The notes beneath the pieces are model-generated. The model ran no database searches. It saw only the letters and a list, made by a program, of their open reading frames with translations, and was not told the origin of the DNA. A DNA stretch of 64,000 bases from Atopobiaceae bacterium (lineage in GTDB: Bacteria > Actinomycetota > Coriobacteriia > Coriobacteriales > Atopobiaceae): the NCBI GenBank assembly GCA_022482785.1, contig JAKVON010000001.1, positions 1 through 64,000 on the forward strand. Reading direction: 5' to 3'. Position 1 is the first letter of the stretch. Each line of letters opens with the position of its first letter. The position numbers and the translations under genes are program-made. Shown one piece after another: positions 39,929-62,769 of this stretch.

Positions 39929-40071
39929 CGATGTCTCCCCTCCTGCCGCCGCTGCCGTTCGCGGCAGAGCGGCGTCATGGTCGAGCAGGCCCTCATTTTA
40001 AGCTAGGATTGGTTTTGTTTCTTTGTCCCTTTCGCGTCGGGCATGCCCCATCGGCTGAACGGAGAAATCGC

Positions 40072-42147
40072 ATGTGGCTTGAGTTCGCCATGGTCGTCGC
40101 CACCTTCATGCTCGTGCTCATGGTTCCAGGCTATCTCCTCCTCCGTGCCTTTGGCTTCCCAAGGGCCTGGGCGGCCTGCTCCGCCCCTCTACTCAGCACG
40201 AGCCTCCTCTGCATCCTAGGGCAGCTGCTTGCCTGGGCTCATGTCGAGGCCAGCCCGCTCCTGGTGCTCGGCCCGGCCACGGCGCTGCCGCTCGTGGCGA
40301 TGCTCGCGGGCAGGGGCCGGGTCAGGAACGCCAAGCTGCCCGACATTCCCTGGTGGCTGCCGCTCGTCTACGTTGCCGTCGGTGCGTTCGCGGGCCTCAA
40401 CCTGTTCCTCATGCACCTCCCCTCTCTCGACTCGCTCTTTCAGGCCTATGACGCCACCCAGCATCTCAACGAGATCCAGGCCATGGTCGACTCCGGACGC
40501 TACTCGTCGCTCGGGGTCAGCACGTACCTCTCGGCCGCCGACCAGGCCATCGATCCCACGCCAGGCGCAGGGTTCTATCCCTCGGCATGGCATATAATCT
40601 GTGCCATCGTGGTCAGGCTCACGGGCGCCGGAGTGCCGATTGCGATCAATGCCTCCGAATACGTCTTCGCGGCCGTCGCGTTCCCCCTCGCCATGGTCCC
40701 CTTTCTCGCCATGGTCTTCGGAAAGGTGCGTCGGCCTCTCGTGTTCGGAGCGGTCGTCTGCGTCTCATTCGTGATGTTTCCCTGGGCGCTCCTTATCTTC
40801 GGTCCCACCTATCCCAACATGGCGGGGTTCTGCGTCCTGCCTTCGGCGCTTGGGATCTTCATGTGCCTCGCGAGCCCCGAGCCGTCGAAAGAGGAGTGGG
40901 CGCGCACGCTGGCGGCCTTCGTCTTCTCTCTCGTTGGCCTTGCGCTCCTGCATCCCAACACGCTCTTCTCTGCGGCCGTGATCCTCATCCCCTTCTGCGC
41001 GTCGCGACTTCTTCGGTGGTCGGAGGAGAAGCACGGCATCCGTTCGCCGAGGGCCATCGCGGACGTGGCGATCTTCTTGGTCGCCTGCGCCGGGCTCTGG
41101 TATGCCTGCTACCGCCTTCCCTTCTTCGCTGGAATCGTCGACCACACCTGGCCGCAATACGCTCGTCCCTTCCAGGAGTTCGTCAACATCCTTGGTCTCG
41201 TCTATGCGTTTCATCTCTTCAACGAATTCATGGTGCAGGCCGTGCTCGGCCTGCTGGTCGTCGTTGGCATCGTCCGTGCCCTCAACTCCGAGGAGCATCG
41301 CTGGCTCCCCTTCTCGTACCTGCTCATCTGCGTGATTATCATGATTAACGCAACCAGCGACGAGACTCTCAAGCACGTGCTCGCGGGCTTCTGGTACACG
41401 GACGTCATGCGACTCTCGGCCGTCGCCTGCATCGCAGCGATTCCCCTCGCGGCCTTCGGCTTCGATTGGGTCTACGAGAACTCCGTGCGCGCCGTGAGGC
41501 GCTACAACGGCGACGCGCGGGAGACCCACTCGCGCGCCATCGCAGCCGTGCTGGTGGCAGGGTTCGTCGTGATCAACTTCATGCCAAGCTTCGACCTATC
41601 CGGACTGCACCAGAAGTCCATCACGGCCGCCGAGGCGGCCGCCGGCCAGAAGCAGGAACGCTCCGTCCGCACCACTTTCGGCGATTACCGCGAGTACGTG
41701 ACGGAGACCTATTCCTATGCGGTCCCCCTGAGCCAGCAGGAGGTCGCCTTCCTCAAGGCCGTGCGCGACGAGGTCGGCAACGGCTCCGTCGTAGTCAACG
41801 ACCCCATGGACGGAAGCTTCCTGGGTTACGGCATCACGGGCGTGCGCTGCTACTACCGCAATTTCGTCGGAGTCGGAGATGACAACGAAACCGCGCAGAG
41901 CGTCCTGATTCGCCAGCATCTGAACGAGATCTCCTCGAATGACGAGGTGCGTCAGGCGGTCTCTTCCATTGGCGCGCAGTATGTCATGATACTGAACGAG
42001 CAGGACTCGGAGGGGTCCTTCATAAACCTGCGGAAGGATTACCATCCGGAGTACTTCTCGGGCATCTCCTCCATCACCGACGACACCCCCGGCTTCGAGG
42101 TCGTCCTCCAGGACGGCCCGCTGCGCCTCTACCGCATCACGGGATAG
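40072..42147 (+). CDS. large multi-TM membrane protein (DUF6541-like), glycan-locus associated
   Basis: multi-TM; SLDSLFQAYDATQHLNEIQAMVDSGRYSSLGVSTY...GFYPSAWHIICAIVVRLTG. Confidence 0.75.
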   Translation: MWLEFAMVVATFMLVLMVPGYLLLRAFGFPRAWAACSAPLLSTSLLCILGQLLAWAHVEASPLLVLGPATALPLVAMLAGRGRVRNAKLPDIPWWLPLVYVAVGAFAGLNLFLMHLPSLDSLFQAYDATQHLNEIQAMVDSGRYSSLGVSTYLSAADQAIDPTPGAGFYPSAWHIICAIVVRLTGAGVPIAINASEYVFAAVAFPLAMVPFLAMVFGKVRRPLVFGAVVCVSFVMFPWALLIFGPTYPNMAGFCVLPSALGIFMCLASPEPSKEEWARTLAAFVFSLVGLALLHPNTLFSAAVILIPFCASRLLRWSEEKHGIRSPRAIADVAIFLVACAGLWYACYRLPFFAGIVDHTWPQYARPFQEFVNILGLVYAFHLFNEFMVQAVLGLLVVVGIVRALNSEEHRWLPFSYLLICVIIMINATSDETLKHVLAGFWYTDVMRLSAVACIAAIPLAAFGFDWVYENSVRAVRRYNGDARETHSRAIAAVLVAGFVVINFMPSFDLSGLHQKSITAAEAAAGQKQERSVRTTFGDYREYVTETYSYAVPLSQQEVAFLKAVRDEVGNGSVVVNDPMDGSFLGYGITGVRCYYRNFVGVGDDNETAQSVLIRQHLNEISSNDEVRQAVSSIGAQYVMILNEQDSEGSFINLRKDYHPEYFSGISSITDDTPGFEVVLQDGPLRLYRITG

Positions 42148-45331: not shown

Positions 45332-46801
45332 TCACCGGGCGGAAGACGCCCTCCTCTGTCTCATCTCCCGCATGGTCGAGACGATGTAGTCGTATTCCTC
45401 GAGATGGAGCAGCCTCGCCAGCACCGCGAAGATTCCGTAGACAAGGACCACCTGGACGACGATCGCCAGGACGAGCGGAAGGCCGAGCATGCCCACTGGC
45501 CAGGCGGCGGCTCCCGCCAAGGCGGAGAGGCCGTACGCCGGGCAGATGTCCCTGATCTGTTCGAGATACGAATAGCCTATCACCCGCTTGTTGGGCGCAG
45601 CGTTGATAAACGTCGCGATGATCGTGTTGATGACATAGCCGCAGATGATCGCCGTGAGGCTCCTCATGACGAATGCCGAGACAAAAAGGATCGCGAGGCC
45701 GACGACCTTCTTCTCGACCTCGAGCCTCAGGAACAGGTCGCTCCTTCCCATGCCGTTCAGCACCTGGAGGTTCGTGGTGTGGACGGGAAGCATCGCGTAG
45801 ATGAAGCAATAGGCCTGCAGGAAGGGAACGCACGGCAGCCACTTCTCTCCGAGAAGGAGCACGACGATGGGATTCGCCGCGACGGCGAAAGCCGTCATGG
45901 ACGGCACGATGAGAAACGTGCTCGTCTTGAGTCCACGACGGGCCAGTCTCTTGACGCGCGCCGAGTCATCCTGGATATGCGAGACGGCAGAGAGCATGAC
46001 GGGCTGGATGGCACCGTCCAGCATCGTGCCCAGAGCGAGGGGATACTTCTTGCCTTGTGAGACATATCCGAGGTCCGTGCTGGTAAAGAGCTTCCCTATG
46101 ACGAGGTCGGAAAGGCTCTGGTACCCCTGGTCGAGCAGGCCTGATGCCAGGAGCTTCCACCCGAACCCGAAGAGGCGCTCCGCCCTGTCCCTGTCGAAGA
46201 CGGCCCGCGGCTTCCAGGGAATCTGCAAGGCAAGCACCAGGCACTTGCTGAGCTGGAACAGAAGCTGCTGCACGACGAGGGCCCATATGCCCCCACCGGC
46301 GACGGCGACCGCGATGCCGCCCACGCCAGAGACGGCACTCGCCGTCACGGTCGCGCGAAACGTCTTCTTGAACTCGAGATTACGGGCGACGATCGCCTCC
46401 TGGATGGAATTGAACGAGTTGATGATGAGCACGAGGACGAGCACCCTGAGGGGGGCGACGAGCGTCGGCATCGAATAGAAGGCGGCGACCAGGGGAGCAC
46501 AGAAAAACACGGCGGCATAGAGCACGAGCGAGATCGCCAGACTCATCCAGAAAACCGTGGAGTAGTCTCTCTCGCTCGCATCGGGAGCCTGAATGATGGC
46601 GGTGTTCAGACCGGATTGGACGAGGACGTTGCCGATGTTGACGAAGACCAGCATGATTGCCAGCACGCCGAATTCCGCCGGGGCGAGGAGGCGAGCCATC
46701 ACGATCTGGACGACAAGCGTGATGAGCGAGGTACCGCCCTGCTCGAAGAGCTTCCAGAAAAGAGATTTAATCGTGCTTGTCTTCAGGTCCCCAGTTGGCA
46801 C
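45332..46801 (-). CDS. polysaccharide flippase, Wzx/MOP-type
   Basis: MPTGDLKTSTIKSLFWKLFEQGGTSLITLVVQIVMARLLAPAEFGVLAIMLVFVNIGNVLVQSGLNTAIIQ. Confidence 0.92.
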   Translation of the reverse strand: MPTGDLKTSTIKSLFWKLFEQGGTSLITLVVQIVMARLLAPAEFGVLAIMLVFVNIGNVLVQSGLNTAIIQAPDASERDYSTVFWMSLAISLVLYAAVFFCAPLVAAFYSMPTLVAPLRVLVLVLIINSFNSIQEAIVARNLEFKKTFRATVTASAVSGVGGIAVAVAGGGIWALVVQQLLFQLSKCLVLALQIPWKPRAVFDRDRAERLFGFGWKLLASGLLDQGYQSLSDLVIGKLFTSTDLGYVSQGKKYPLALGTMLDGAIQPVMLSAVSHIQDDSARVKRLARRGLKTSTFLIVPSMTAFAVAANPIVVLLLGEKWLPCVPFLQAYCFIYAMLPVHTTNLQVLNGMGRSDLFLRLEVEKKVVGLAILFVSAFVMRSLTAIICGYVINTIIATFINAAPNKRVIGYSYLEQIRDICPAYGLSALAGAAAWPVGMLGLPLVLAIVVQVVLVYGIFAVLARLLHLEEYDYIVSTMREMRQRRASSAR

Positions 46802-46914
46802 GCAGTCCTCCGATACGAGCTAGAACCCGGACGGGCGAAGCCGTCAATCACATACACTGTAATGGTACGTGCCTGATTCTTTCGCAAGCATCTCGCTCAA
46901 CGCATAGGAGAACC

Positions 46915-49386
46915 ATGGACTGGACGCGATTCGGCTACCTCATCGCGGTGCTTGTTGCATCGATTCCCCTCGTGGTGGCGATGACGCGGCTCATGCCCGA
47001 GCTCGCAGGCCCCAGCCCCCGTCAGACCAGGCAGGAACTCGTCGTTCTCGGCCTGGTCCTCGCATTGGGCGTGGCGGCCATCTACGGGAGCTTTCTTGCC
47101 GGAACCTCGTACTTCTCCTATTGGGACGTGGGGTCCGACACCTCGGAGCAGTACGTCCCCTTCTACATCAACATGCTCGACGGCATTCGAGCGGGGACGT
47201 TCGGCCCCTGGAACAGCCGCTTCGGATTGGGAGAGAGCTTCATAGCCTATCAATCCTGGGTGCTGGACCCCTTCAACCTCGTTCTCGTCCCCCTCGGCCT
47301 GATGCTCGGTGATGCCAGGCTCGGCCTCGTCCTTGTCATCGTGCAGGTCGCAAAGGTATTCCTCTCGGGCTACCTGTTCGACCGCATCCTCCTGAGATAT
47401 GCAGAGACGCCGATTGCCAGGCTGGTGGGCTCGACGCTCTACGCGTTCGGAGGGTTCCTGCTGCTTTGGGGCCAGCACTATTGGCTCGGCACGGCCTATG
47501 TTCTCTGCACCCTCCTCATCCTCGCGCTCGAAGGGCTCATGAGCCGATGGAGCGTCCCCCGCTTCCTCGGGGTCGCGCTCAGCGTCGCGGTCTCCATCGG
47601 GATGAGTGCCTATGTCGGGTTCATGATCATGCTCTTTGCCACCGTCTATGCCTTGCTGCGGACGCTTCACCTCTCTCGGTGCACCTCCCTCGCAGGCTTC
47701 GCCCGAGCCTTCATGCCGCTCGTGGTTCCAGTCCTATGTGGCTGCCTCCTATCCTGCGCCTCGCTCGTCCCCTATGCGGAGACGCTGCTCGGAGAGTCCT
47801 CCCGCGTGACGGGCTCGCAGGGCTCCGCTTCGGGACTTGCCGCTCAGTCGGCGTTCGTTCCCCTGCGGTGGGTTCCGGCGATTCTGAGCCGGATTCTTGG
47901 AGACAGCCTCATCAGCAGCGGTGCGGACATTCCAGAGACGCTCGTTCCCGCGACGGCCGCCTTCCCGTACGTCAACGTGTACGAGTTCATCATGGTCGGT
48001 TTCTCCGGCTCGGCGTTCGTTCTCATCGCGCAGTTCTTCCATTGGGCCGTCAGGAAGGCGAGCCGACGGGACAAGGCCTTGGTCTTCGTGGCCTCCTTGC
48101 TGGTGCTCATGTACTGCTTCAACTTCTTCCTCCCGTCCCTCTCGAACCTCTTCGTCGCCCCGAAGTATCGGAGCAGCTTTGCGCTGGCGATTCCCTTTGG
48201 CATAGCCCTCACGGTCGGATTCGAGAAGGGACTGGTGGAGGGCAGGTGCGCCACCGTCCCGCTCGTGGCGGGAGCGGGCCTAACCGCCTGCGTGCTTGCC
48301 TGGTCCCTTGCCAACACGGTAAACGGGAGATTGGCCTGCCTGTTCTACATCGCGGCCCTCTGCCTCGTGGTCGGCCTCGCCGTCCTGAGAAGGTCGCGGC
48401 CAGAAAGCGGGGCCATTCTCGCCCTTCTCTGCATGGCCATCGTCTCGACGTCGCTCGTGGACGGCTTTTTCGTCACAAACAATAGGCTGACCAGCACAGC
48501 CAGCAACTTTCCCAAGGCAGAGGAGCCGGGGAGGGGATCCGACACCGAGGAGGCCCTCGCCTATCTCAGCCAACGCGATGGCTCCTCGTATCGAGTGGAG
48601 AAGCTCTATACCGACTGGACGCGACTCAGCGACTCCCTCGTCGAGGGGTACCGGGGGGTCTCCGCCTATTCTTCCGTCCTGGACAGTGACATCGACGACT
48701 TCTACGAGAACCTTTGGCCCGGCGCGCTCGACGGCTCAGCGTACCAGGTGTTCTCTAACAGTCCGGACGAGCCCGAGATTCTCTCGCTGCTGAACGTGAA
48801 GTACCTGCTCTCGAAAGACGAGCTGCCCTTCGGATGGTGCCAGCTCGTCGATCGAGTCGGAAGCGTCTACGTCTATCAGAACATGTCCGCCCGAGGAACC
48901 CTGAGCAGCTGGGGCAGCGTCATGGGAGAGGGAGAGGCGGCACGCATCCCCACCCCGGAGGAAAGGGCGAAGGTCCTCGGCACCTCCCTCATAGTCCCCG
49001 ACAGCGCCTTGCAGGGCCTGGAAGGGGTCGACCTCTCGTCCGAGGCGACGACGACCTGCGTCGAGACGGGCGGGTCGAGCGTCGAGGGAACGGTCGACGC
49101 GTCCTCCGACACGGTCGTATACCTTGCCATCCCCCATACGGCGGGATGGACGGTCTGCGTAGACGGAAGCCCGGTCGAGACCTTCAGGGCCGATTACGGC
49201 TTCATCGGCTTCCAGGTCGGGGCCGGGAGCCATGTCGTCACGGCCTCGTTCGAGCCTGTCGGCACCGCCACGGGCATCGCCGTCTCCCTCGCAGGCCTCT
49301 GCGCGACGGTTGTCTCATGCGCCATTGGGAAAAGGGCGGGAGCGAGGAAGGCGATCCACGCGGAGGCGAGGAGCCCTCAGGCCTAG
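46915..49386 (+). CDS. YfhO-family membrane protein
   Basis: GTSYFSYWDVGSDTSEQYVPFYINMLDGIRAG...NSRFGLGES; YRGVSAYSSVLDSDIDDFYENLW; LSLLNVKYLLSKDE; C-terminal extracytoplasmic beta domain. Confidence 0.85.
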   Translation: MDWTRFGYLIAVLVASIPLVVAMTRLMPELAGPSPRQTRQELVVLGLVLALGVAAIYGSFLAGTSYFSYWDVGSDTSEQYVPFYINMLDGIRAGTFGPWNSRFGLGESFIAYQSWVLDPFNLVLVPLGLMLGDARLGLVLVIVQVAKVFLSGYLFDRILLRYAETPIARLVGSTLYAFGGFLLLWGQHYWLGTAYVLCTLLILALEGLMSRWSVPRFLGVALSVAVSIGMSAYVGFMIMLFATVYALLRTLHLSRCTSLAGFARAFMPLVVPVLCGCLLSCASLVPYAETLLGESSRVTGSQGSASGLAAQSAFVPLRWVPAILSRILGDSLISSGADIPETLVPATAAFPYVNVYEFIMVGFSGSAFVLIAQFFHWAVRKASRRDKALVFVASLLVLMYCFNFFLPSLSNLFVAPKYRSSFALAIPFGIALTVGFEKGLVEGRCATVPLVAGAGLTACVLAWSLANTVNGRLACLFYIAALCLVVGLAVLRRSRPESGAILALLCMAIVSTSLVDGFFVTNNRLTSTASNFPKAEEPGRGSDTEEALAYLSQRDGSSYRVEKLYTDWTRLSDSLVEGYRGVSAYSSVLDSDIDDFYENLWPGALDGSAYQVFSNSPDEPEILSLLNVKYLLSKDELPFGWCQLVDRVGSVYVYQNMSARGTLSSWGSVMGEGEAARIPTPEERAKVLGTSLIVPDSALQGLEGVDLSSEATTTCVETGGSSVEGTVDASSDTVVYLAIPHTAGWTVCVDGSPVETFRADYGFIGFQVGAGSHVVTASFEPVGTATGIAVSLAGLCATVVSCAIGKRAGARKAIHAEARSPQA

Positions 49387-50345
49387 AGCGTAACCCCTCT
49401 GCCGAGCAGGGAGCGCATGACGAGAACCGCCGACCATCTGATGGGAGAGAAGAGGTAGGCGGGCCAATCTCTCTCCGCCATCAGCTCTCGCATGCAATCC
49501 TTCCTCGAGAATGGCGCGATTCTCCCATGGCTCCACTTGAGATAGGTCCGGTAGTAGGTCAGCTTGGCCGCCCTGAGCGCCTCGGGGTTGTCGCAGCCCT
49601 CGGCATAGGAGACCAGCGTCCTGCCGAATTGGACCTCGTTTCGTGCGTATTCCTCGTCAACCCTGACGGTGGCGGAATAGCTGCTCCCGCCCGTCTGCAC
49701 GTGTCGATAGGCGCTCCATACGGAAGGCAGGCTCTTGACCCTCCCGATCGAAAGGAGGATGAAGGCATATCTGCGATCGCCCGCATAGCGTTGGTAGCAG
49801 GATCTTTCCGTGAACCTCTTGCGTGCGGCGACATACGGCTCGCGGCGGATGAGGGAGGTGCCGATTTGTCCGGGCATGCTGCAGTAGAAGTACTCCTTGA
49901 ACGTATACTCCTCGCGCGGGCACTCCGGGTACTTCTCTCCCGTCGGCAGGGAGTCCTTCCCCACGATCACGCATCGATGGAAGACCGCCGAGTACTCCGG
50001 ATGGCTCTTCAGGAAGTCGACCTGCGCCTGAAGCTTGGTGTCTTCCGTCCAGAAGTCGTCCCCCTCGAGGATGGCGAGGTACGTGCCGCGCGAGCGAAAG
50101 AGCATATCGGCATCGTTGGCCTCCCCGCCCATGTTCCTTTCCCTGAACAGAAACTTGAAGTGGGGGGGAAGCTCCTTTGCCATCTCCTTTAGCAGGGCCC
50201 TCGTGCCATCCGTCGAGCAGTCCTCCCCCACGAAGACCTCGTAGGGGAAGTCGACCTTCTGCGATGCGATGCTGCGCAGGCACCTCTCGATATAGGCCTC
50301 GTGGTTGTAGACGGACACGTTCACAGAGACAAGCGGTGCATCCAA
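49383..50345 (-). CDS. family 2 glycosyltransferase
   Basis: MDAPLVSVNVSVYNHEAYIERCLRSIASQKVDFPYEVFVGEDCSTDGTRALL...AILEGDDFWTEDTKLQAQVDFL. Confidence 0.92.
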   Translation of the reverse strand: MDAPLVSVNVSVYNHEAYIERCLRSIASQKVDFPYEVFVGEDCSTDGTRALLKEMAKELPPHFKFLFRERNMGGEANDADMLFRSRGTYLAILEGDDFWTEDTKLQAQVDFLKSHPEYSAVFHRCVIVGKDSLPTGEKYPECPREEYTFKEYFYCSMPGQIGTSLIRREPYVAARKRFTERSCYQRYAGDRRYAFILLSIGRVKSLPSVWSAYRHVQTGGSSYSATVRVDEEYARNEVQFGRTLVSYAEGCDNPEALRAAKLTYYRTYLKWSHGRIAPFSRKDCMRELMAERDWPAYLFSPIRWSAVLVMRSLLGRGVTL

Positions 50346-50385
50346 GAGTTCATCATCCCTTCGCGTGCCCGACGGAGATGCTCCG

Positions 50386-51498
50386 TCAGCTCCGCCCCTG
50401 AGCGAGAATGGTGCTGCAGATCATGTCCACGTCGGACATGTCGAGATCTGCGAACATGGGCAGCGTGAGAACGCGCGAGGCGATCTCACGAGCGACGGGG
50501 GTCTCCGAGGAGTCGAATCTGTCCTTATAGCAATCGTAGTCGCTGATGAGCGGGAAGAAGTATTTGCGCGCGAATACGCCCCTTCTCCCGAGGGAATCGA
50601 ACACCTCGTCCCTCGTGGCTCCGAACGAATCCTCGAACACGACCGGGAAGTAGGCATAGTTCTGGGCGACGCCAGGCTGAGGCAGGCATAGCTTGATTCC
50701 AGCCCTCCCTTCGAGACGAGAGCGATAGCGCTCTGCAACGAGGCGGCGCTTGGCGATCTCCTCGTCGAGATGGCGGAGGTTGCAGATCCCCATGGCGGCG
50801 CAGAACTCGTTCATCTTCGCGTTGCCGCCTACGAACTCGACCGTCTCCTCCCCCGTGATGCCGAAGTTCTTCCATTGGTCGAGCCGGTCCTTAAGGCGCG
50901 GGTCGCGAAAGCAGACCGCCCCGCCCTCGATGGTGTTGAACACCTTCGTGGCATGAAACGAGAACATGGAGGCATCCCCGTAGGCAGCAGCCGAGACGCC
51001 GTCCCTCCTCACTCCGAAAGCATGCGCGGCGTCATAGATGACCTTGAGGCCGTGCCTGTCTGCGATGTCTTGGATTGCCTCGACATCGCAGAGGTTCCCG
51101 TATACGTGCACGGGCAGAATGGCGCACGTCTCCTCGTCGACGAGGGATTCTATCCTCTCGGGATCGAGCGTGTAGTCGTCTGGCTTGATGTCGGCAAAGA
51201 CGGGCGTGAGCCCCTTCCTCACGATGGCATGGGTCGTCGAGGCGAAGCTGTAGGGAGTGGTGATGACTTTCCCCCTCAGCCCCATCGCCTCGAGGACGCA
51301 TTCCAAGGCGGAGTGGCCGTTCACGAAAAGGGCGACGTTCTCGACCCCCAGATACCGTTTGAGGTCAGACTCGAGCTGACGATGCTCCGCGCCCATGTTC
51401 GTGAGCCAGTGGCTCTCCCAGATGGGCGCAATCTCCTCCACGTACTCTTCCAAGGGCGGCATCGAAGAGCGGGTGACCAGGATTTTTCTGTCATTCAT
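50386..51498 (-). CDS. DegT/DnrJ/EryC1/StrS-family sugar aminotransferase
   Basis: VNGHSALECVLEAMGLRGKVITTPYSFASTTHAIVRKGLTPVFADIKPDDYTLDP; VIYDAAHAFGVR; FSFHATKVFNTIEGGAVC. Confidence 0.93.
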   Translation of the reverse strand: MNDRKILVTRSSMPPLEEYVEEIAPIWESHWLTNMGAEHRQLESDLKRYLGVENVALFVNGHSALECVLEAMGLRGKVITTPYSFASTTHAIVRKGLTPVFADIKPDDYTLDPERIESLVDEETCAILPVHVYGNLCDVEAIQDIADRHGLKVIYDAAHAFGVRRDGVSAAAYGDASMFSFHATKVFNTIEGGAVCFRDPRLKDRLDQWKNFGITGEETVEFVGGNAKMNEFCAAMGICNLRHLDEEIAKRRLVAERYRSRLEGRAGIKLCLPQPGVAQNYAYFPVVFEDSFGATRDEVFDSLGRRGVFARKYFFPLISDYDCYKDRFDSSETPVAREIASRVLTLPMFADLDMSDVDMICSTILAQGRS

Positions 51499-51523
51499 GG
51501 AAATGCTCCAAATCGGGCGCGGA

Positions 51524-52495
51524 CTAGCCCTCGTCGACCTTCGTGACATACTCCTCGTACTTCCGTGCGATGTACTGGTCGGGATAGGGAGCCATGGGCT
51601 CGATCTCGTCTCCCGCGAACGCGCGGACATGATTCCCGACGCAATCGTATGCCGCCATGCAGGAGAACTCCACCCCTCCGGAAAACCTCGGGTTGCACTC
51701 GAGGAAACGATAGCCACCTGACGCGGCCGCAATGAACTCGAAATTGACACAGCCCAGGATTCCCAGCTCGGAGGCAAGGGAGCAACAGGTCTCGGCAAGC
51801 CTCTCGTCATGGAAGACTCGCACCGAGGTCCCCGCCCCGTTGAGCGTCCTGAGCAACTCCTCGCGAGGGATGGCGACCACGTGGCCTGCCGAGTCGCGGA
51901 CGATGTCCACGGTCACCACGGGGCCCTCGATGAGGGGTTGGACAACGTAGCGGGCAGGGTCCTCGATGTCCTCCACCGATTTCCACTGCGTCGCCGTGCG
52001 AATCCTCCTCAGCCCCTCGCTGCTTCTGCCGTCGAGGGGCTTGCACACGACGGGGAGCTCGACAGGCCCCGAGATGCATTCGAGCAGGGGGCGAGTCTCG
52101 ATTCCGAGGACGCCCGAGCCCGACGAACGAAGAAACCTTGCCATGTTGTCTTTGTTGCGGCAGAGGTCGACCGTCTCCTTGGGGGAAATGAGCGGAACGG
52201 CGTCGCCAAGCCAGGCGGCGTCACGTGCCAGGTTGAAGAGGTCCACCTCGACGTCCGTGAGGGGGATGATGACGTCGACGTGCTCGTCCTTGCAGAAGTC
52301 CCGAATGAAGCGAGCGTACGCCTCGGCATCCGAGGCAAGGGGGGCTTGGCGAAACGCATCGACGTTGGCGGCGTCCGCAATCCACTCGAACGGATAGATG
52401 TCGCAGCCAACGACCCGAAGGCCCAGACGCTTGAGCCTCTTGATAACGATGTCCGCTGAGAACGACCCTATCGCGGTGACAAGCGCAACATGCAT
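51524..52495 (-). CDS. ATP-grasp domain protein
   Basis: MHVALVTAIGSFSADIVIKRLKRLGLRVVGCDIYPFEWIADAAN...PVVCKPLDGRSSEGLRRI...VNFEFIAAASGGYRFLECNPRFSGGVEFS. Confidence 0.87.
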   Translation of the reverse strand: MHVALVTAIGSFSADIVIKRLKRLGLRVVGCDIYPFEWIADAANVDAFRQAPLASDAEAYARFIRDFCKDEHVDVIIPLTDVEVDLFNLARDAAWLGDAVPLISPKETVDLCRNKDNMARFLRSSGSGVLGIETRPLLECISGPVELPVVCKPLDGRSSEGLRRIRTATQWKSVEDIEDPARYVVQPLIEGPVVTVDIVRDSAGHVVAIPREELLRTLNGAGTSVRVFHDERLAETCCSLASELGILGCVNFEFIAAASGGYRFLECNPRFSGGVEFSCMAAYDCVGNHVRAFAGDEIEPMAPYPDQYIARKYEEYVTKVDEG

Positions 52496-52640
52496 GTCCT
52501 GGCCCTTCGACTTAGCTGGTAACCCTCATACTACCACGAGGTCAATAAGGCTCCATACGCCGGTTGGGGCTCTGCACGAGCCGTGCGCGACGCGTTGTAT
52601 AATGCGTCATGAACGGACAATGTCGTATCCAGGGAGCCTC

Positions 52641-53783
52641 ATGAATTCGAATGACATGGACGATCTTCTTGCCGACGGTTTCACCCGTAGAATGGCCGCC
52701 GAATATCTCCAGACCCAGGAGGTCGAGCGGGCGAGCGGAATGTTCGATCCGGACTACCTGGAATGGGCCCATTCGAATGGGTTCTATGCCGAGTCCGCCT
52801 GCGCCTACCAGCTGAGCGACCAGACGAAGAGCAACTACCTCAGCGATTATGACTTCTGTAAGCTCTGGCCCCTGAACGACTGGCAGCGCATCTGGATAAA
52901 CGACAAGCTTACCTTTGAGTACACGCTCGCAGGGACCGAGTTCTCCCATTTCCTGCCCGAGTATTATTACTACAGTTCCAAGGGGAGGCTGCTGGCACTG
53001 CTCGACAGCAGAATGGATGTCAGCCTCGACGGCTTTCTCTCCCTTCTCCGCGAGAAGGGAGAGTTCGCCTGCAAGCCATGCAACGGCACCGAGTCGGCAG
53101 GTTTTCACAAGCTGACCTGTGATGCCGATGGGTTTGGCATCGACGGAATGCCGGCCGATGCCAAAGGAATCGGGTCTTTTCTTCGCGAGCACCCGAACTA
53201 CGTCTTCACCGAGTACCTCCATCCGAGCCAGGACATGGCAGAGATCGACCCCCTCATCCACACGCTTCGCCTCGTCGTGATCGACCCCACTGGGGTGGAT
53301 CCGGTCCCCATTGCCTCCTACCTCAGGTTTGCCGTCGGGAACAAGGACTCGCAGAGCGGCGCGAACTACCAGAGGCCGACCTCGGACGACATCTGCTCCT
53401 ACAACGTCGAGTTCGACATCGAGACGGGTCGCTATGGAAACGGCAAGCTTGCCTACGCCACGAAGGTGCTTGACATGCCAAGGCATCCAGATAGCGGCAT
53501 TCTCGTCGAAGGCGCCGTCGATGCATGGCAGGAGCTGCTAGCCTCCATCAAGAGGCTCTCACTCAGGCTTGGTCCCGTCGAGTACATGGGGTTCGACATC
53601 GGCATCACCGACCATGGCCCCAAGATCATGGAGATAAACTCGCACCCTGGCATCAAGTACCTCCAGATATTCAAGCCCCTGCTCACAAACGAGCTCGCGG
53701 CAGAGTATTACCGGAGAAAGCTCGACCTCATTGGCGAGATGACCCCCGATGAAAGGACCAGGCGCAACGAGACGGTGCGCTAG
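52641..53783 (+). CDS. sugar-transfer-associated ATP-grasp-like protein
   Basis: GEFACKPCNGTESAGFHKLT...YVFTEYLHPSQDMAEIDPLIHTLRLVVID...VEYMGFDIGITDHGPKIMEINSHPGIKYLQIFKPLL. Confidence 0.82.
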   Translation: MNSNDMDDLLADGFTRRMAAEYLQTQEVERASGMFDPDYLEWAHSNGFYAESACAYQLSDQTKSNYLSDYDFCKLWPLNDWQRIWINDKLTFEYTLAGTEFSHFLPEYYYYSSKGRLLALLDSRMDVSLDGFLSLLREKGEFACKPCNGTESAGFHKLTCDADGFGIDGMPADAKGIGSFLREHPNYVFTEYLHPSQDMAEIDPLIHTLRLVVIDPTGVDPVPIASYLRFAVGNKDSQSGANYQRPTSDDICSYNVEFDIETGRYGNGKLAYATKVLDMPRHPDSGILVEGAVDAWQELLASIKRLSLRLGPVEYMGFDIGITDHGPKIMEINSHPGIKYLQIFKPLLTNELAAEYYRRKLDLIGEMTPDERTRRNETVR

Positions 53784-54925
53784 CCCTTCTCCCGGCCATA
53801 GAACTCCTTGACAAGACCGACGACGCGACGACGGTCCTCGGCTGACAGTCCATAATACAGGGGCAGGCGGACGAGCCGCTCGCTCTCCGATGTCGTATGG
53901 GTGTCTTCGCCGTCGAACCGGCCGAAACGCTTCCCCGCGGGAGAGCTGTGCAACGGGATGTAGTGGAACACCGCCATCACCCCCCTCTCCTTGAGGAAGG
54001 CGATGAGCGCGGTGCGCTCGGCAAGGTCGGCACACTTGAGATAGAACATGTGGGCGTTATGGACGCAGCCGTCGGGCACCGTGGGGAGCTCGATCTTGCC
54101 GGCGTCGGCCAGGGCCGCAAGCTCGTCCCGATAGTAGCGCCAGGACTCGAGCCTGTCGTCATTGATAGCGTCCGCCTGCTCGAGCTGAGCCCAGAGATAG
54201 GCGGCATTGAGGTCGCTGGGAAGGTAGCTGCTCCCACGGTCGACCCACGTGTACTTGTCTACCTGGCCACGGAAGAAGCGCTGGCGGTTCGTGCCCTTCT
54301 CGCGGATAATCTCGGCGCGCTCGACATAGTCATCGTCGTTGATCACGAGGGCGCCGCCCTCTCCCATGGAGTAGTTCTTCGTCTCGTGGAACGAATAGCA
54401 GCCGAACGTGCCGATCGTTCCAAGGGCCCTGCCCTTGTACGTGCTCATGACGCCTTGGGCGGCATCCTCGACGACGAGGATGCCATGCCGCGAGGCGATG
54501 TCGCAGATCTTGTCCATCTCGCACGAGACTCCCGCATAATGGACCGCGACGATGACCCGGGTCCGGCTGGTGATGGCACGCTCTATCCTGTCCTCGTCGA
54601 TGTTCATGGTATCGGGACGGATGTCGACGAAGACCAAGGTGGCACCCATCAGCTGGAATGCCGTTGCCGTGGAGGAGAAGGTGTAGCTCGGAAGTATGAC
54701 CTCGTCTCCGGGCTCCAGCCCCGAAAGGATGGCTGCCATCTCGAGCGCAGTGGTTCCGCTGGTCGTCAGCAGCACCTTCCGCGCACCGAACCGCCGCTCC
54801 ATCCAATCGTCGCACCGTCTGGTGAAGGGGCCGTCGCCGCATATCTTGTGATTGACTGCCGCTGCCTCGCGGACGTAGTCCAGCTCGCTACCAACATACG
54901 GCGGAATATTGAAATCAATGTTCAT
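53780..54925 (-). CDS. rffA: dTDP-4-amino-4,6-dideoxygalactose transaminase-like (RffA/WecE type)
   Basis: MNIDFNIPPYVGSELDYVREAAAVNHKICGDGPFTRRCDDWMERRFGARKVLLTTSGTTALEMAAIL; VVEDAAQGVMSTYKGRALGTIGTFGCYSFHETKNYSMGEGGAL. Confidence 0.93.
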   Translation of the reverse strand: MNIDFNIPPYVGSELDYVREAAAVNHKICGDGPFTRRCDDWMERRFGARKVLLTTSGTTALEMAAILSGLEPGDEVILPSYTFSSTATAFQLMGATLVFVDIRPDTMNIDEDRIERAITSRTRVIVAVHYAGVSCEMDKICDIASRHGILVVEDAAQGVMSTYKGRALGTIGTFGCYSFHETKNYSMGEGGALVINDDDYVERAEIIREKGTNRQRFFRGQVDKYTWVDRGSSYLPSDLNAAYLWAQLEQADAINDDRLESWRYYRDELAALADAGKIELPTVPDGCVHNAHMFYLKCADLAERTALIAFLKERGVMAVFHYIPLHSSPAGKRFGRFDGEDTHTTSESERLVRLPLYYGLSAEDRRRVVGLVKEFYGREKG

Positions 54926-55041
54926 AAGAAACCCCATAGGATAGGACGTCGCTCGCATCTGACCCACCATGCTATCTTGCGCCAGTTGCGGCAAATAGGG
55001 AAGACGCCGGCGGCAAAGTCCGCCACATGGATACAACCCTC

Positions 55042-56238
55042 CTACGCGAGACGGATGCAGTCGTTGGCCGATGCGAGCACCCGGTCGAGCTCGGACTCGT
55101 CATCCGTCGCCATGATTACCTGCCCGAAGCGATCAGTTCCGTCATGAACGGCATGGACGTGGTCACCGGGGGCGACGTCGATGCCGATCCTAGCCCCAGA
55201 CGACCTCTCGAGGGCGCGGAGCCTCGAGAGGTCGATCGTCTCGACGGTACCCGCGACATCGGAAAAGAGCAGCTTGGCCATACAGGGTTTCGAGCAGTCG
55301 GAATCGAAGCGGACCGGCTCGCCCAACGCCGCGCGAATCATCTGGGCATAGTAATCGAATCCCAGGTGCATCGAGATGAGCTCGGGAATGCAGGTGGCCC
55401 CGCATCGTCCGCCCATCTCGATGATGGATACGCCCCCATCGGGCAGGACCATGACATCCCCGTTGAAGGCGCATTCGTCCATGCCGGTTGCCTCCACGAC
55501 GAGAGCGACCTGCCTGAACAGGCTATCCCTGGTTTCTTTGGACCTCATAAGAGGAAACGAATGGCCTGAGGGGATGGTGACGGCGCCGGCACGACGGACG
55601 AACTTCTCGTGGGGCGCAAAGAGGGCGACGCTTCCCCGGGAGACGAATCCGTCGACGCCGATCTCCGTGCCGGAGACGAATTTCTCCACCACGATATGGT
55701 CGGCATGGGTGGCATTCGTCGCCGCCTGATAAGCCGCATCGAGGTCGTCGATGCGAGAGACCTTGGTGATCCCCCTGCTTCCCGAGACGTCGCACGCTTT
55801 GACCATAACGGGCAGCCCGAGGCGGATGGCAGCCCGACGGGCCTCGTCGAGCCTCCCCACGACCTCGAAAGGCGAGGTCGAAACCCCTGCCGCACGAAAC
55901 GATTCCTTCATGGCGGCTTTGTCCGTGAGATTGCGGGAAGCCGAGGCCGATATCCCGGGAAGCCCAAGCGCATCGCAGACGTGCCCGACGGTCGGGACCG
56001 AGACATCGGTGCCCGTCGTGACGATGCCGTCGATGCGCTCCTCGCGAGCGGCCTCGAGAACCGCGTCCGCATCGGTGGTGTCTATCTCATGGAAGCGGTT
56101 CGCCTCGGAAAACCCTGGGTAGTTCCCCGCGTAGCTCACGACGATGGTCTCGATGCCCATCGCACGGGCCTTGCGGATGAGAGGCACCTGGTAGATGCCG
56201 GCCCCCAGGACCATGAGCCGTTTCGCATGCGCACCCAT
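55042..56238 (-). CDS. ATP-grasp carboxylate-amine ligase-like protein
   Basis: KRLMVLGAGIYQVPLIRKARAMGIETIVVSYAGNYPGFSEANRFHEIDTTD; LPVMVKACDVSGSRGITKVSR; CAFNGDVMVLPDGGVSIIEMGGRCGATCIPELISMHLGFDYYAQM. Confidence 0.9.
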   Translation of the reverse strand: MGAHAKRLMVLGAGIYQVPLIRKARAMGIETIVVSYAGNYPGFSEANRFHEIDTTDADAVLEAAREERIDGIVTTGTDVSVPTVGHVCDALGLPGISASASRNLTDKAAMKESFRAAGVSTSPFEVVGRLDEARRAAIRLGLPVMVKACDVSGSRGITKVSRIDDLDAAYQAATNATHADHIVVEKFVSGTEIGVDGFVSRGSVALFAPHEKFVRRAGAVTIPSGHSFPLMRSKETRDSLFRQVALVVEATGMDECAFNGDVMVLPDGGVSIIEMGGRCGATCIPELISMHLGFDYYAQMIRAALGEPVRFDSDCSKPCMAKLLFSDVAGTVETIDLSRLRALERSSGARIGIDVAPGDHVHAVHDGTDRFGQVIMATDDESELDRVLASANDCIRLA

Positions 56239-57159
56239 CTAGAGGTTGACCTTGTCTCGGACGATATATTGGGGTGAGCTGTTTATAGAGAGAACGATAT
56301 CGCCGATGTACTCCCCTATTATGCCGAGCACGAGCAACACGAGGCCGAAGAAGAAGAGCATGATGCAGACGGTCGAGGTCCAGCCCATTATCATGGTCGG
56401 GTCGATGAGCTTGCGAATGATGGTGACGATTCCAGCGACGAAGCCGACGATTGAGGTCGCCAGACCGATGATCGACGCGACGCGAAGAGGCACGACGGAG
56501 TAGTTGAAATAGGCAACCCAGAGCTTGGCCATCTTCCTGAGGGTGTATCCCGAGGAACCGTACTCGCGCTTATGATGCTCGATGGTTACGTTGCCGATAT
56601 TATGGGTGGTGCGATAGAAGAGCCCGTCGACGTATGGGTTGAAGCTCTTGCAGCGAACGACCTCGTCTCTCACCCCCTTGGTAATGCACCAGAAGTTGCT
56701 CGAGCGGATGTCCTTGGGTCGCCCCAGGAGCGTTCTGGACGACACCCTATTAAACCAACTGGTGAAATTCTTTGCGGCCCCGTTAGTCGACTCACGGTAG
56801 ACCCCATACACCAGATCGTATCCCTCCTCCATCTTCCCCAGAATCACGGGAATCTGCGAGGGATGGGTCTGGAGGTCGTCATCCATCCCGATCACGTAGT
56901 CGCCCTCGGCGAAGTTCATGCCACACATGAGACCATTGTGCTGCCCGAAGTTGCGCATGAGGTTGATGCCATGGACGTTCGGATAGTCGAATCCAAGGCG
57001 CCGTATCTCGCCGAACGTGTCGTCTGACGAGCTGTCGTTCACGAGGACGAACTCGCACTCATAGCCGCCCATCTCGTCGAACTGGGCCATCGTGAGCTCG
57101 ACTACCTCGCGAATGGTATGCTCCGAGTTATAGCATGGAATGACGATCGATACGAGCAT
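56239..57159 (-). CDS. family 2 glycosyltransferase, GtrB/undecaprenyl-phosphate type with two C-terminal TMs
   Basis: MLVSIVIPCYNSEHTIREVVELTMAQF...DDDLQTHPSQIPVILGKMEEGYDLVYGVY...LVLLVLGIIGEYIGDIVLSINSSPQYIVRD. Confidence 0.93.
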   Translation of the reverse strand: MLVSIVIPCYNSEHTIREVVELTMAQFDEMGGYECEFVLVNDSSSDDTFGEIRRLGFDYPNVHGINLMRNFGQHNGLMCGMNFAEGDYVIGMDDDLQTHPSQIPVILGKMEEGYDLVYGVYRESTNGAAKNFTSWFNRVSSRTLLGRPKDIRSSNFWCITKGVRDEVVRCKSFNPYVDGLFYRTTHNIGNVTIEHHKREYGSSGYTLRKMAKLWVAYFNYSVVPLRVASIIGLATSIVGFVAGIVTIIRKLIDPTMIMGWTSTVCIMLFFFGLVLLVLGIIGEYIGDIVLSINSSPQYIVRDKVNL

Positions 57160-57168
57160 GCTTCCCTC

Positions 57169-58149
57169 TCAGTTGCCAGCGGTCAGATAGTCGAAGAAAA
57201 GCGGCAGGCCCCCCGTATGCAGGAAGAGAATGTTTTTCCCGGTCATGCCACGCTCCTCGATCAAGTCGAGCATCCCTCGGAATGCCTTCCCAGTATAGGT
57301 CGGATCCATGGGGACCGAGTTCTCGCGCAGCATCGTCTCGACGAGCTCGACGACGCGTTCGTCGACCACGCCATACCCGCCGCAGGTGTACTTCGTCTCC
57401 AGGTGGATGTGGTCGGCATAGTCCGCAGGGCACGCCAGGCCCTCCTTCTCGAAATAGCCACGCACGGTCGAGCGGAGCACCGAGAGCGCTCGGCCCTCCG
57501 GACGAGACGATATCGAAATCCCGACTATCTCGCGGCCGTCATGGGCCAGAAGGCTGCCCGCAACGAGGCCCCCCTGCGTGCAACCCGTGCCATACGGCGT
57601 GACGACGAGATCGATCGAGGTGCCCGAGGAGCGCTCCCACTCCCCTATCTCGGGATAGGCAGACGCATAGGCACGAGCGGCCGTCCCCTCGTTGCCCGTG
57701 CCGGTACGGTCCCCGTAGATGTAATAGGGGGTAAGGCCGCGGCCGGACAACAGCCGGAAGGCGCGATCGACCGTAGCCGCGATGGAGTCAGACGCGCATT
57801 CGAGCACCTCGACCCCAAAACGATCGACGATGCGGGCATTGAGCGAGTCGCCGCTCCCGCCATCGGCATCTGTCGCGACCATGACGCACGGGATTCCCTC
57901 GATGCTGCAGAGGTTCGCAAGAACGCGGCAGAGGTTCGAGCGGCGATCGCCGTACATGACGAGGGCGTCACAGCCGCGATCGCGCAGGTCCTTGACGAAC
58001 TCGCAGGCGATCCGCACCTTGTTGCCACCGAAGGAGAAGGGCAACAGGTCGTCCCTCTTCAGATAGACCGCATTGCCCCGCCGCTCGGCCTCGGCACATT
58101 CGATGCGCTGCACGGGCGTCGGGACGACGAGAGGGCTGATCATCGGCAT
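57169..58149 (-). CDS. PLP-dependent fold-II enzyme, D-cysteine desulfhydrase/ACC deaminase-like
   Basis: TPVQRIECAEAERRGNAVYLKRDDLLPFSFGGNKVRIACEFVKDLRDRGCDALVMYGDRRSNLCRVLANL; TPYGTGCTQGGLVAGSL; ILFLHTGGLPLFFDY. Confidence 0.88.
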   Translation of the reverse strand: MPMISPLVVPTPVQRIECAEAERRGNAVYLKRDDLLPFSFGGNKVRIACEFVKDLRDRGCDALVMYGDRRSNLCRVLANLCSIEGIPCVMVATDADGGSGDSLNARIVDRFGVEVLECASDSIAATVDRAFRLLSGRGLTPYYIYGDRTGTGNEGTAARAYASAYPEIGEWERSSGTSIDLVVTPYGTGCTQGGLVAGSLLAHDGREIVGISISSRPEGRALSVLRSTVRGYFEKEGLACPADYADHIHLETKYTCGGYGVVDERVVELVETMLRENSVPMDPTYTGKAFRGMLDLIEERGMTGKNILFLHTGGLPLFFDYLTAGN

Positions 58150-60030: not shown

Positions 60031-62769
60031 TTAAAAGATGTAGACCGTAGAGCCGATGGATACATTGTCAAATATCCACTTTGCGTTCTCGTGATAGAGG
60101 CGAGTGCAGCCATGCGACTCGTAGCCAGGCGTACCGTCGTAGGCATCATGGAAGCCCTGTCCGTCGTCGTTCGCAGCGTTATGCGCTCCGGTACCATCGT
60201 TGTTCACCCAGTAGTCAAAGTAGACGGTGAAATATGGGTTCGACGCGCCGGATTCCCACTTATGGTTTATCCGATAAGTACCAGTGAAAGTCGGATGCTC
60301 AGCCGTGCCGAGGTTCGAATCGAAGGCCTTCACGAGCTTGCAGCCGCTGTTCGCGTCGAAAACAAGGACGCGGCATGTCGAGCGGTCCGTGACGATGATA
60401 GAACCGGTATCGGTCGACAAAGAGCGAGCCTTGTTCGTGATGCCGGATACATACGAGGCATCGTTCTTCCAGCTTCCTTCGATTGTGTCTTCGTCGATAT
60501 AGTTAAGCGAGGCATACTTCTCGATTCTCCACGCACATGCCCTCGAATTGTTGGAGCCAATTACGTACACGGCAATAGAACCGTTACGGGCGGCGGTATC
60601 GTTCGTTCCGCTCGATCCGATAGCAAGCCCCGTCGAAGAGCTCGTTTCGATTTTCGAGATAATGACGATTCCTCCGTGGGTGCCAATTGAGAATCTCCAG
60701 AGCTGCGCGTCGGAGCCATTCGCAGTGTCCTCTTGGACGACAGTTCCCGAGAGGCTCTTTGCATCCCGAACGTCAACGTACAGTCCCGTCGAAAGGCTCA
60801 TGATCGTGTACCAGCCGCTGCCCGCCGACGAAACCCGCCATTTCTGGGCGCTCGCACCATCCTTGTCGTAGAGATGGAGAGCGGTCCGAGGGGTCTTCGA
60901 CTCCTCTGGGGCATCGAGCGCCTGATTGGTATCCGCGAGATTGAGAAAGGAATACGTCCCCTCCTCGAGAGCATCCGCGACGAGGGCTCGCCAAATCTGG
61001 GCTTTCGTCCCATTGGGAGCGTAGGTGGACACCAGTCTTCCAAGAGAGGCGATGCCACCCGAGAGGTCGAGGGCTTTCCCGGAGATGACATTCTTGAAAA
61101 CCAAACCACCGATGGAGCCCAACGACACGCGCCATTGCCCGGAGCCCGTCACCGAAGAGGCCCCGACAAGCGAGCTCTTTCCCTCTGTCAGGAAGAGGCC
61201 TGAGTTTGCATTCATAATCGAATAGGCACCGCCTGAAAGCTTTGCGATAACCCACTTCTGCGCAAGGGTGCCGTTCTTATCCCAAATCTGCACTTTTGCA
61301 TCCGACGCAGTCGAAGCGCCGTCGACATCGATGACGCGCATGGAGTCAATCGAGTTGACAAGCTGATAGAGGCCCCCATCGAGCAAAGAGGCTGCCGACA
61401 AGACCCATCTTTGGGCCTTCGACCCATTGGGATCCCATGTCTGGACGCGCCCGCCATTCTTGGCAAGAGCACCGGAAAGGTCAACGGCCATTCCGTTCAG
61501 GGCGGAGGAAAGCGACCAGGTCCCGTCTGAGTTTGTCCGGATGCTCCACAGCTGTGCAGCCGTCCCATTTGCCGCGTACTGCCACAGGCTCGTCCCGGAT
61601 GACCTGTTTGCCCCCGGGATATCAAGCACTTTCCCCGAAACCGCTGACTTCACCGTATAGTAGCCGGTACGAGAGTCATAGGCAACGTCCCACTTCTGCG
61701 CGCTGCTCCCATTCGACGCGTAGAGCTGAACAGCGGCCCCATCGTCAACGGATCCCCCCGCAACGTCGAGGACCATGCCGGCGTTCACCGCAGACTTGAC
61801 CGTGTAGACGCCAGAGGCAATCGTACTGGCCACCCTGGAAAGTGTCCAGAGCTGGGCAGCCGTGCCATTCGAGCTATAGACCTGAACATTCGATCCGTTG
61901 GCGGTGCCGCCACCCGAAACGTCGAGCATCAGGCCATTGAGAACCGAGCGAAGCGCAAAACTGCCGTTCTCGTCCTTGAGAAAATCCCAGAGTTGGGCCT
62001 TGGTGCCGTTGGCTTCGTATACCTGGACGTTCGTCCCAGAGGCCATCCCGGCACCGGCCACGTCAAGGGCAAGGCCGCTGACTGCGCTGTAGATGATGTA
62101 ATGGCCATCGGCCTTGACAACGCGCCAGCGCTGCGCTTGGGTGGAGTTCGCATCAAATATCTGGACGTTTGCACCGTCGGACATGCTGCCGCCCGAGATA
62201 TCAAGGGATTTCCCTGAAGTCTTTGACGTGATGGTATAGGCACCCTCGTCAACCGTCGCACTGGAAAAGGAAGGGGTTGAGGCGACATCGGCCTCCGTTG
62301 AAGCCGCCTCGGAAGTCGAAGTGACCTTCCCCTCCGAAGAGGAGGACGTGGTTGGAGTCGGCTGCGGTGCATCCGAAGGGTTGTTGGAAGTCGACACGCC
62401 TTTTGACTCGGACGAGGAGCTGGATGAGACGCCGCCGCCCGTGGCGGCAGGCGCAGAAGGCGTTACGGAGCCACTCGGCGAGGTGCTCGTTGTCTGCCCG
62501 GCTTCGGAGGATTCCGCTGAGCTCGACGTGGAGGACTCCGACGAGGAGGACGATGCGGATATCGGAGACGAGCCTGCAGTGGCAGCATCCCCTACAGGAA
62601 CGGTGGCATTCAGATTATCTGAGGCGGAATCGGAAACCGCTGCTTCCATTCCGAAAGCCTGGGTTTGGACGGAAAAGCAAAGTGCGGCGGCAACGACAAG
62701 GAAGAAAACCAGGCATGGATGGAAAGAACCGCCCCTCGCTTTGCGAACTCCTACAAAAGCCATGCGCAC
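60031..62769 (-). CDS. secreted L,D-transpeptidase (YkuD-like) with ~12 ricin-B-type QxW repeats and Ser-rich linker
   Basis: signal peptide; Ser/Thr-rich linker; AQRW/AQLW/AQLW/AQKW/AQLW/AQRW/AQKW/GQW/AQIW/AQKW/AQLW/ACAW repeats; C-terminal GYESHGCTRLYHENAKWIFDNVSIGSTVYIF. Confidence 0.88.
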   Translation of the reverse strand: MRMAFVGVRKARGGSFHPCLVFFLVVAAALCFSVQTQAFGMEAAVSDSASDNLNATVPVGDAATAGSSPISASSSSSESSTSSSAESSEAGQTTSTSPSGSVTPSAPAATGGGVSSSSSSESKGVSTSNNPSDAPQPTPTTSSSSEGKVTSTSEAASTEADVASTPSFSSATVDEGAYTITSKTSGKSLDISGGSMSDGANVQIFDANSTQAQRWRVVKADGHYIIYSAVSGLALDVAGAGMASGTNVQVYEANGTKAQLWDFLKDENGSFALRSVLNGLMLDVSGGGTANGSNVQVYSSNGTAAQLWTLSRVASTIASGVYTVKSAVNAGMVLDVAGGSVDDGAAVQLYASNGSSAQKWDVAYDSRTGYYTVKSAVSGKVLDIPGANRSSGTSLWQYAANGTAAQLWSIRTNSDGTWSLSSALNGMAVDLSGALAKNGGRVQTWDPNGSKAQRWVLSAASLLDGGLYQLVNSIDSMRVIDVDGASTASDAKVQIWDKNGTLAQKWVIAKLSGGAYSIMNANSGLFLTEGKSSLVGASSVTGSGQWRVSLGSIGGLVFKNVISGKALDLSGGIASLGRLVSTYAPNGTKAQIWRALVADALEEGTYSFLNLADTNQALDAPEESKTPRTALHLYDKDGASAQKWRVSSAGSGWYTIMSLSTGLYVDVRDAKSLSGTVVQEDTANGSDAQLWRFSIGTHGGIVIISKIETSSSTGLAIGSSGTNDTAARNGSIAVYVIGSNNSRACAWRIEKYASLNYIDEDTIEGSWKNDASYVSGITNKARSLSTDTGSIIVTDRSTCRVLVFDANSGCKLVKAFDSNLGTAEHPTFTGTYRINHKWESGASNPYFTVYFDYWVNNDGTGAHNAANDDGQGFHDAYDGTPGYESHGCTRLYHENAKWIFDNVSIGSTVYIF

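Follow-up and report, generated by a model that had tools for sequence, protein, structure and literature searches.

What could ATP-grasp ligases do beside sugar aminotransferases in a glycan locus? The question is raised by the first 64 kb (here called the window) of a 282 kb contig, JAKVON010000001.1, from an Atopobiaceae bacterium (GCA_022482785.1), whose GC-rich genome of 2.6 Mb is 85.5% complete. Two DegT-type aminotransferases (AT_A and AT_B), two GT2 glycosyltransferases (GT2A and GT2B), three ATP-grasp enzymes (AG_A, AG_B and AG_C) and a pyridoxal 5'-phosphate (PLP) enzyme, PALP, were present in one locus. The conserved unit among them is WecE (AT_B), an ATP-grasp ligase and an ArnC-like GT2, an Arn-like cassette with a ligase replacing the acyltransferase. 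On balance, and with considerable reserve, we consider that the locus builds a surface glycan bearing aminoacylated 4-amino-4,6-dideoxygalactose (Fuc4N), loaded via undecaprenyl phosphate.

AT_B scored above the curated WecE/RffA cut-offs (NF008687, 625 bits, cut-off 375; TIGR02379, 615 bits, cut-off 435), and it matched the solved WecE structure 4piw over the full length (residues 3-375), so judging from its sequence dTDP-Fuc4N is its likely product. For AG_B, a LAL_C2 domain was found at 35 bits (Pfam cut-off 29). Its AlphaFold2 model (pLDDT 89.9) was compared with known structures by Foldseek, giving the uncharacterised 4dim first, then RizA, PurT, BL00235 and BacD, with a TM score of 0.8 to the PurT structure 1kj8. 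Residues K106, K146, E184, E273 and R277 were invariant in an alignment of 23 divergent members, so AG_B combines the ATP-grasp fold with the catalytic Lys, Glu and Arg residues looked for in an L-amino-acid ligase. The comparison with peptide ligases suggested by the earlier note placed AG_B in a fold shared by L-amino-acid ligases and PurT, and AG_B is proposed to be a Fuc4N aminoacyl ligase.

The window's family was sampled as 140 genomes from 35 genera, in which 46 WecE places in 43 genomes were gathered blind to ATP-grasps and their surroundings were then read. An ATP-grasp of the AG_A/AG_B class was located within 3 kb of WecE in 37 of the 46, with about 0.09 close pairs expected at random, while an ArnC-like GT2 (20), YfhO (20) and a pair of EamA genes (16) were found within the same distance. 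A profile of the AG_B class, partly built from WecE/ATP-grasp loci, gave 81 matches in 53 of the 140 genomes, and the class was present in 42 of the 43 WecE genomes versus 11 of the 97 without WecE (Fisher 3e-24). With the window's AG_B as the sole query the association was 13/14 versus 30/126 (p = 6e-7). The p-values given here are guides only, because related genomes are not independent. In most loci WecE and the ligase were neighbours on the same strand, tens of bases apart, which was repeated in another phylum, and several divergent ligase clades in a FastTree tree each adjoin WecE. Conservation of the ATP-grasps with the aminotransferases, on which the earlier note had staked its proposal, is therefore strong for the WecE type. 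In one relative (L069), AG_C, GT2B, an AG_B-class ligase, the EamA pair, WecE, AG_A, Wzx, AT_A and GT2A are united on one strand, which supports reading the window's genes as one locus. A separate observation concerns a protein of about 440 residues with no Pfam match, which adjoins WecE in several relatives (L026:11114-12427, L114:10615-11937) and could be a further sugar-modifying enzyme.

Outside the family, six Firmicutes loci (L019-L024) were retrieved by a genome scan with AG_B, at 46-52% identity. GT2B adjoins AG_B in all six and PALP precedes GT2B in four, and the order PALP, GT2B, ATP-grasp recurs in Lachnospiraceae and others. All six genomes possess WecE (63-69% identity), and in four the gene lay beyond the stretch initially retrieved; the missing WecE beside the cassette in L020-L023 was thus rejected as counter-evidence, since the gene is elsewhere in those genomes. 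In L023 the EamA genes are followed by polysaccharide deacetylase and Orn/Lys decarboxylase-like genes, which we judged to be unrelated neighbours.

As a replication sample, 39 of the WecE places found in the Lachnospiraceae family of the L024 genome (G145) were read. Of these 39, 27 had GT2B within 3 kb and 14 an AG_B-class ATP-grasp. Other loci had, near WecE and GT2B, a protein of some 185 residues, which Pfam identified as a GNAT acetyltransferase. Within 4 kb, an ATP-grasp was present in 15 loci, GNAT in 8, and both in none (p = 0.015). The EamA pair accompanies the ATP-grasp version (10/15 versus 3/24 loci, p = 0.001), and in L161 the genes form a single run of PALP, GT2B, ATP-grasp, EamA, EamA and WecE. 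In the enterobacterial pathway the GNAT enzyme WecD acetylates the 4-amino group of Fuc4N; given the exchange of GNAT and ATP-grasp, the latter most likely acts there too, and it seems to fill the N-acylation slot beside WecE. The families, the catalytic residues, the conserved cassette and this exchange are direct observations.

Several points weigh against aminoacylation of Fuc4N. The Mg-binding motif of AG_B is E-x-G-G-R, not E-x-N-P-R, which is also the case in its PDB neighbour 4dim, and formate (PurT-type) chemistry is compatible with the AG_B fold. Most WecE/ATP-grasp loci are without PALP. No ATP-grasp was present within 4 kb in 24 of the 39 Lachnospiraceae-family loci, as seen with models trained mainly on the window's family, and the EamA pair, the ArnE/F-like small membrane proteins counted above in 16 of the 46 related loci, was not found near WecE in the window.

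If formate were the substrate, AG_B would be a PurT-like N-formyltransferase making Fuc4N-formamide, at the step where ArnA formylates UDP-Ara4N before ArnC, and no amino acid would be involved. PurT does rank among the closest relatives both by fold (1kj8) and by sequence model (NF006766, 68 bits), and the ArnC-like GT2B with its EamA partners mimics the Arn operon, the intermediate of which is N-formylated. The PurT equivalog cut-offs were not reached (339 for NF006766; 53 bits against 502 for TIGR01142), while LAL_C2 exceeds its Pfam threshold and AG_B is as close in fold to L-amino-acid ligases as to PurT. Several divergent ligase clades with the same WecE would be needless for a single acyl group, and amino-acid-type PLP enzymes exist in some cassettes. 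Formylation is thus unlikely, yet it is the alternative that survives best.

L-amino-acid ligases such as BacD yield free dipeptides, and PALP adjoins GT2B and AG_B, so these enzymes might make a free dipeptide or another small metabolite with no link to sugar. We give this little credence, as no gap separates AG_B from the gene of a lipid-carrier glycosyltransferase, this order being shared across phyla, and the AG_B class tracks WecE.

A characterised ATP-grasp enzyme, the capsular amidoligase Cj1438 of C. jejuni, forms an amide between the carboxylate of glucuronic acid and serinol-phosphate or ethanolamine-phosphate (PMC11800379). It resembles the window in that an ATP-grasp ligase participates in capsule synthesis alongside GT2 activity, and the window's ATP-grasp could likewise activate a sugar carboxylate and amidate it with an amine, the WecE product being a separate building block. 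However, Cj1438 belongs to the TupA-like group and has a TupA-like domain, unlike AG_B, and the link found here is to an aminotransferase, with GNAT in the same neighbourhood in other loci, which makes amidation very improbable. Least probable of all is that the genes merely co-reside without a common substrate, since, although glycan loci are patchworks and just 53 of the 140 genomes have the AG_B class, the tight same-strand spacing recurs in another phylum and nearly every WecE genome carries the class.

GT2B matched the ArnC model NF007986 over its whole length at 139 bits (cut-off 529) and has hydrophobic segments at 220-238 and 255-292; it is a probable undecaprenyl-phosphate sugar transferase. 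PALP, which the earlier note had called a PLP beta-eliminase, is adequately described so at the level of family (PF00291; D-cysteine desulfhydrase group), but it reached no subfamily cut-off in NCBIfam (NF052482 for CuyA, 149 bits of 450; TIGR01275, 126 bits of 289). The top model scores were those of CuyA and XcbE, both sulfonate-related. Active-site Lys43, Ser70, Tyr258 and Tyr284 were kept across six relatives, and we take their roles to be those expected in the D-cysteine desulfhydrase group. PALP was present in just 3 of the 140 family genomes. It lay near GT2B or the EamA pair in all ten loci measured, nine of which had been retrieved via other cassette genes and only L164 via PALP itself. 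In one locus (L104:3811-5334) an Orn/diaminopimelate/Arg decarboxylase-like PLP enzyme stands in PALP's place, beside the ligase, GT2B, the EamA pair and WecE. PALP and this decarboxylase-like enzyme may supply the amino acid or amine of the cassette.

A product of this kind has been described in C. difficile, where the type B flagellin glycan (RT027/RT023) carries taurinyl-Ala-Gly on Fuc3N, and where the locus encodes an FdtB homologue and an ATP-grasp ligase, the latter assigned by annotation (PMC5207245, PMC5207246). Both systems are Gram-positive and combine a DegT-type dTDP-sugar aminotransferase (FdtB in C. difficile) with ATP-grasp and GT2 enzymes, the ligases being likened by annotation. 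The products are alike as amino-dideoxy-sugars N-acylated by an amino acid or peptide, that of the window being predicted from genes. The C. difficile sugar is Fuc3N instead of Fuc4N, its glycan is flagellar, and its locus has a FemAB-like acyltransferase and an ornithine cyclodeaminase/alanine dehydrogenase homologue and no PALP; FemAB, cyclodeaminase and flagellin genes were absent among the annotated neighbours of the window locus. The C. difficile glycan demonstrates that a Gram-positive can make such a product, and it is the closest structural precedent. The sulfonate hint from PALP and the taurine of C. difficile may be a coincidence.

Three further systems could be compared. The Arn pathway (ArnBCADTEF), which puts aminoarabinose on lipid A, shares a DegT aminotransferase, an N-acylation step and an ArnC-type GT2 acting on undecaprenyl phosphate, and the EamA pair of the window's relatives resembles ArnE/F. 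It differs in using UDP-Ara4N where the window would use dTDP-Fuc4N, and in having the ArnA formyltransferase where the window has an ATP-grasp; no ArnA N-formyltransferase was found by Pfam annotation among the locus genes. The enterobacterial common antigen pathway for Fuc4NAc (WecE, WecD) is alike in that WecE makes dTDP-Fuc4N and the amine is then acylated, and a GNAT occurs near WecE in some Lachnospiraceae-family loci, whereas the window has an ATP-grasp instead of the GNAT WecD, plus an undecaprenyl-phosphate-type GT2. In the CsbB/GtcA/YfhO multi-component transmembrane glycosylation, a membrane-linked GT2, a flippase and a YfhO-family GT-C enzyme add a sugar outside the membrane (PMC8035078). 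GT2B with its C-terminal hydrophobic segments and the YfhO protein of the window are possible counterparts, but GtrA is absent from the window (one is encoded on another contig of the genome), and the window would use an amino sugar with an extra ligase, while GlcNAc, Glc or Gal is used in that system.

The second aminotransferase, AT_A, is DesI-like, far under the model cut-off (TIGR04427, 271 bits versus 650). In 10 of 13 loci AT_A adjoined GT2A on the same strand, frequently in the company of Wzx, and a Wzx-like flippase was near AT_A in many relatives. AG_A, in which the motif E266-C-N268-P-R270 is invariant, was found in only 8 of the 140 family genomes, in five of which (window included) WecE is at most 3 kb away; it stands directly beside AT_A in the window only, and 1.6-1.8 kb from it in two others. 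Thus the symmetrical triads are not conserved as such, and two symmetrical modules were rejected, the AT_A-GT2A pair being kept without AG_A. The earlier note had described a repeated triad of ATP-grasp, aminotransferase and GT2; the AT_A-GT2A pair and the WecE/ATP-grasp pairing survive from it, the equivalence of the modules does not, AG_A is optional, and its tie to the AT_A sugar was not borne out. The suggestion that ATP-grasps N-acylate amino sugars with amino acids is supported in part, by the WecE linkage, the GNAT exchange, the AG_B fold and the C. difficile precedent. An AG_A homologue in genome G047 looks broken, its match being spread over two frames (L075:6690-7796); it adjoins an intact AG_C.

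AG_C was present in 23 of the 140 family genomes, with K145, E191, E331 and N333 invariant among 18 aligned relatives. No PDB relative was found with a profile of these 18 sequences, and an AlphaFold2 model from the single sequence was set aside at a pLDDT of 34. AG_C is beside another AG_B-class ligase on the same strand, at 60 bases or less or overlapping, in 11 of 22 loci, an arrangement that suggests two ligases acting in succession; this second ligase is absent in the window. Examples are L025:15595-18111, L030:2061-4544 and L081:10693-13159.

By analogy with the Arn and YfhO systems, the order WecE, ligase, GT2B, flippase and GT-C is proposed. WecE would convert dTDP-4-keto-6-deoxyglucose into dTDP-Fuc4N; RmlA and RmlB are encoded elsewhere in the genome. 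At the expense of ATP, AG_B would activate the carboxylate of an amino acid, which PALP might make, and join the amino acid to the 4-amino group of Fuc4N, the position acetylated in other bacteria. Once acylated, the sugar would be attached by GT2B to undecaprenyl phosphate, turned outward by a flippase and transferred to a surface polymer by a GT-C enzyme, for which YfhO is a candidate. The ligase could just as well act once the lipid carrier is loaded. AT_A and GT2A would make and add a second amino sugar; AG_A and AG_C may act on this second sugar, or they may extend the peptide. We infer here the reaction, its order relative to GT2B, the amino acid, the flippase of this genome and the acceptor polymer.

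The genes are listed below. On the minus strand the transcription order is PALP, GT2B, AG_B and WecE, then AG_A, AT_A and GT2A, with gaps of 0 to 116 bases within operons; AG_C, on the plus strand, separates the two groups and is convergent with WecE, with an overlap of 4 bp. The eight open reading frames agreed with the earlier description in coordinates, strand and named family (open reading frame check, Pfam and NCBIfam), including the zero gap at the GT2B/AG_B junction, where 55042-56238 abuts 56239-57159.

Genes of the locus and its flank, with positions in the window
Gene	Assignment	Position	Strand	Support
Wzx	Wzx-like flippase	45332..46801	-	PF13440 326 bits
YfhO	YfhO-family membrane protein, candidate GT-C transferase	46777..49386	+	PF09586
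GT2A	Cytosolic GT2 without hydrophobic segment, partner of AT_A	49383..50345	-	PF00535
AT_A	DegT-family sugar aminotransferase, DesI-like	50386..51498	-	TIGR04427 271 bits (cut-off 650); PDB 2po3
AG_A	ATP-grasp of PRK12767 / ATPgrasp_Ter type	51524..52495	-	PF15632 65 bits; nearest PDB 2pn1
AG_C	Sugar-transfer-associated ATP-grasp (ATPgrasp_ST)	52641..53783	+	PF14397 50 bits (cut-off 31)
AT_B	WecE/RffA, predicted dTDP-Fuc4N transaminase	53780..54925	-	NF008687, TIGR02379, PDB 4piw
AG_B	ATP-grasp ligase with ATPgrasp_N and LAL_C2	55042..56238	-	Pfam
GT2B	ArnC/PgfS-like GT2 with hydrophobic C-terminal segments	56239..57159	-	NF047588 162 bits, NF007986 (ArnC) 139 bits, both below cut-off
PALP	PLP fold-type II enzyme (D-cysteine desulfhydrase / ACC deaminase / CuyA group)	57169..58149	-	PF00291

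The locus is adjoined by the YfhO-family gene, the Wzx-like flippase and more glycosyltransferase-type genes. One neighbour (39931-42147) is a DUF6541 membrane protein, which matches its family model end to end, recurs near the cassette in relatives and is perhaps another GT-C transferase. Another (60031-62769), large and secreted, has ricin-type lectin repeats and, at its C-terminus, a YkuD (L,D-transpeptidase) domain; a relative of it with 32% identity is at contig positions 64663-67482, and similar proteins flank the cassette in many relatives. The ricin-lectin/YkuD protein might bind the glycan or the wall.

No paper naming ATP-grasp together with Fuc4N was found in a literature search, most subscription journals being outside its reach, and nothing of use came from a search on Eggerthella wall polymers. 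That bacterial amino sugars can bear amino acids and peptides is already known chemically; what this locus and its relatives indicate is a ligase family with its likely sugar, along with an exchange between the ligase and acetyltransferases. A broader picture, which we put forward only tentatively and think less likely than the reading of this locus, is that gut Gram-positives of at least two phyla share a widespread Arn-like cassette, in which Fuc4N is constant and the ligases are exchangeable, and in which clade-specific, sometimes non-protein amino acids from a PLP enzyme give surface glycans a variable aminoacyl signature, delivered via undecaprenyl phosphate. If the proposed aminoacylation of Fuc4N is true, the cassette would be a genomic marker for aminoacylated glycans, and a common route by which gut Gram-positives vary surface charge and antigenicity.

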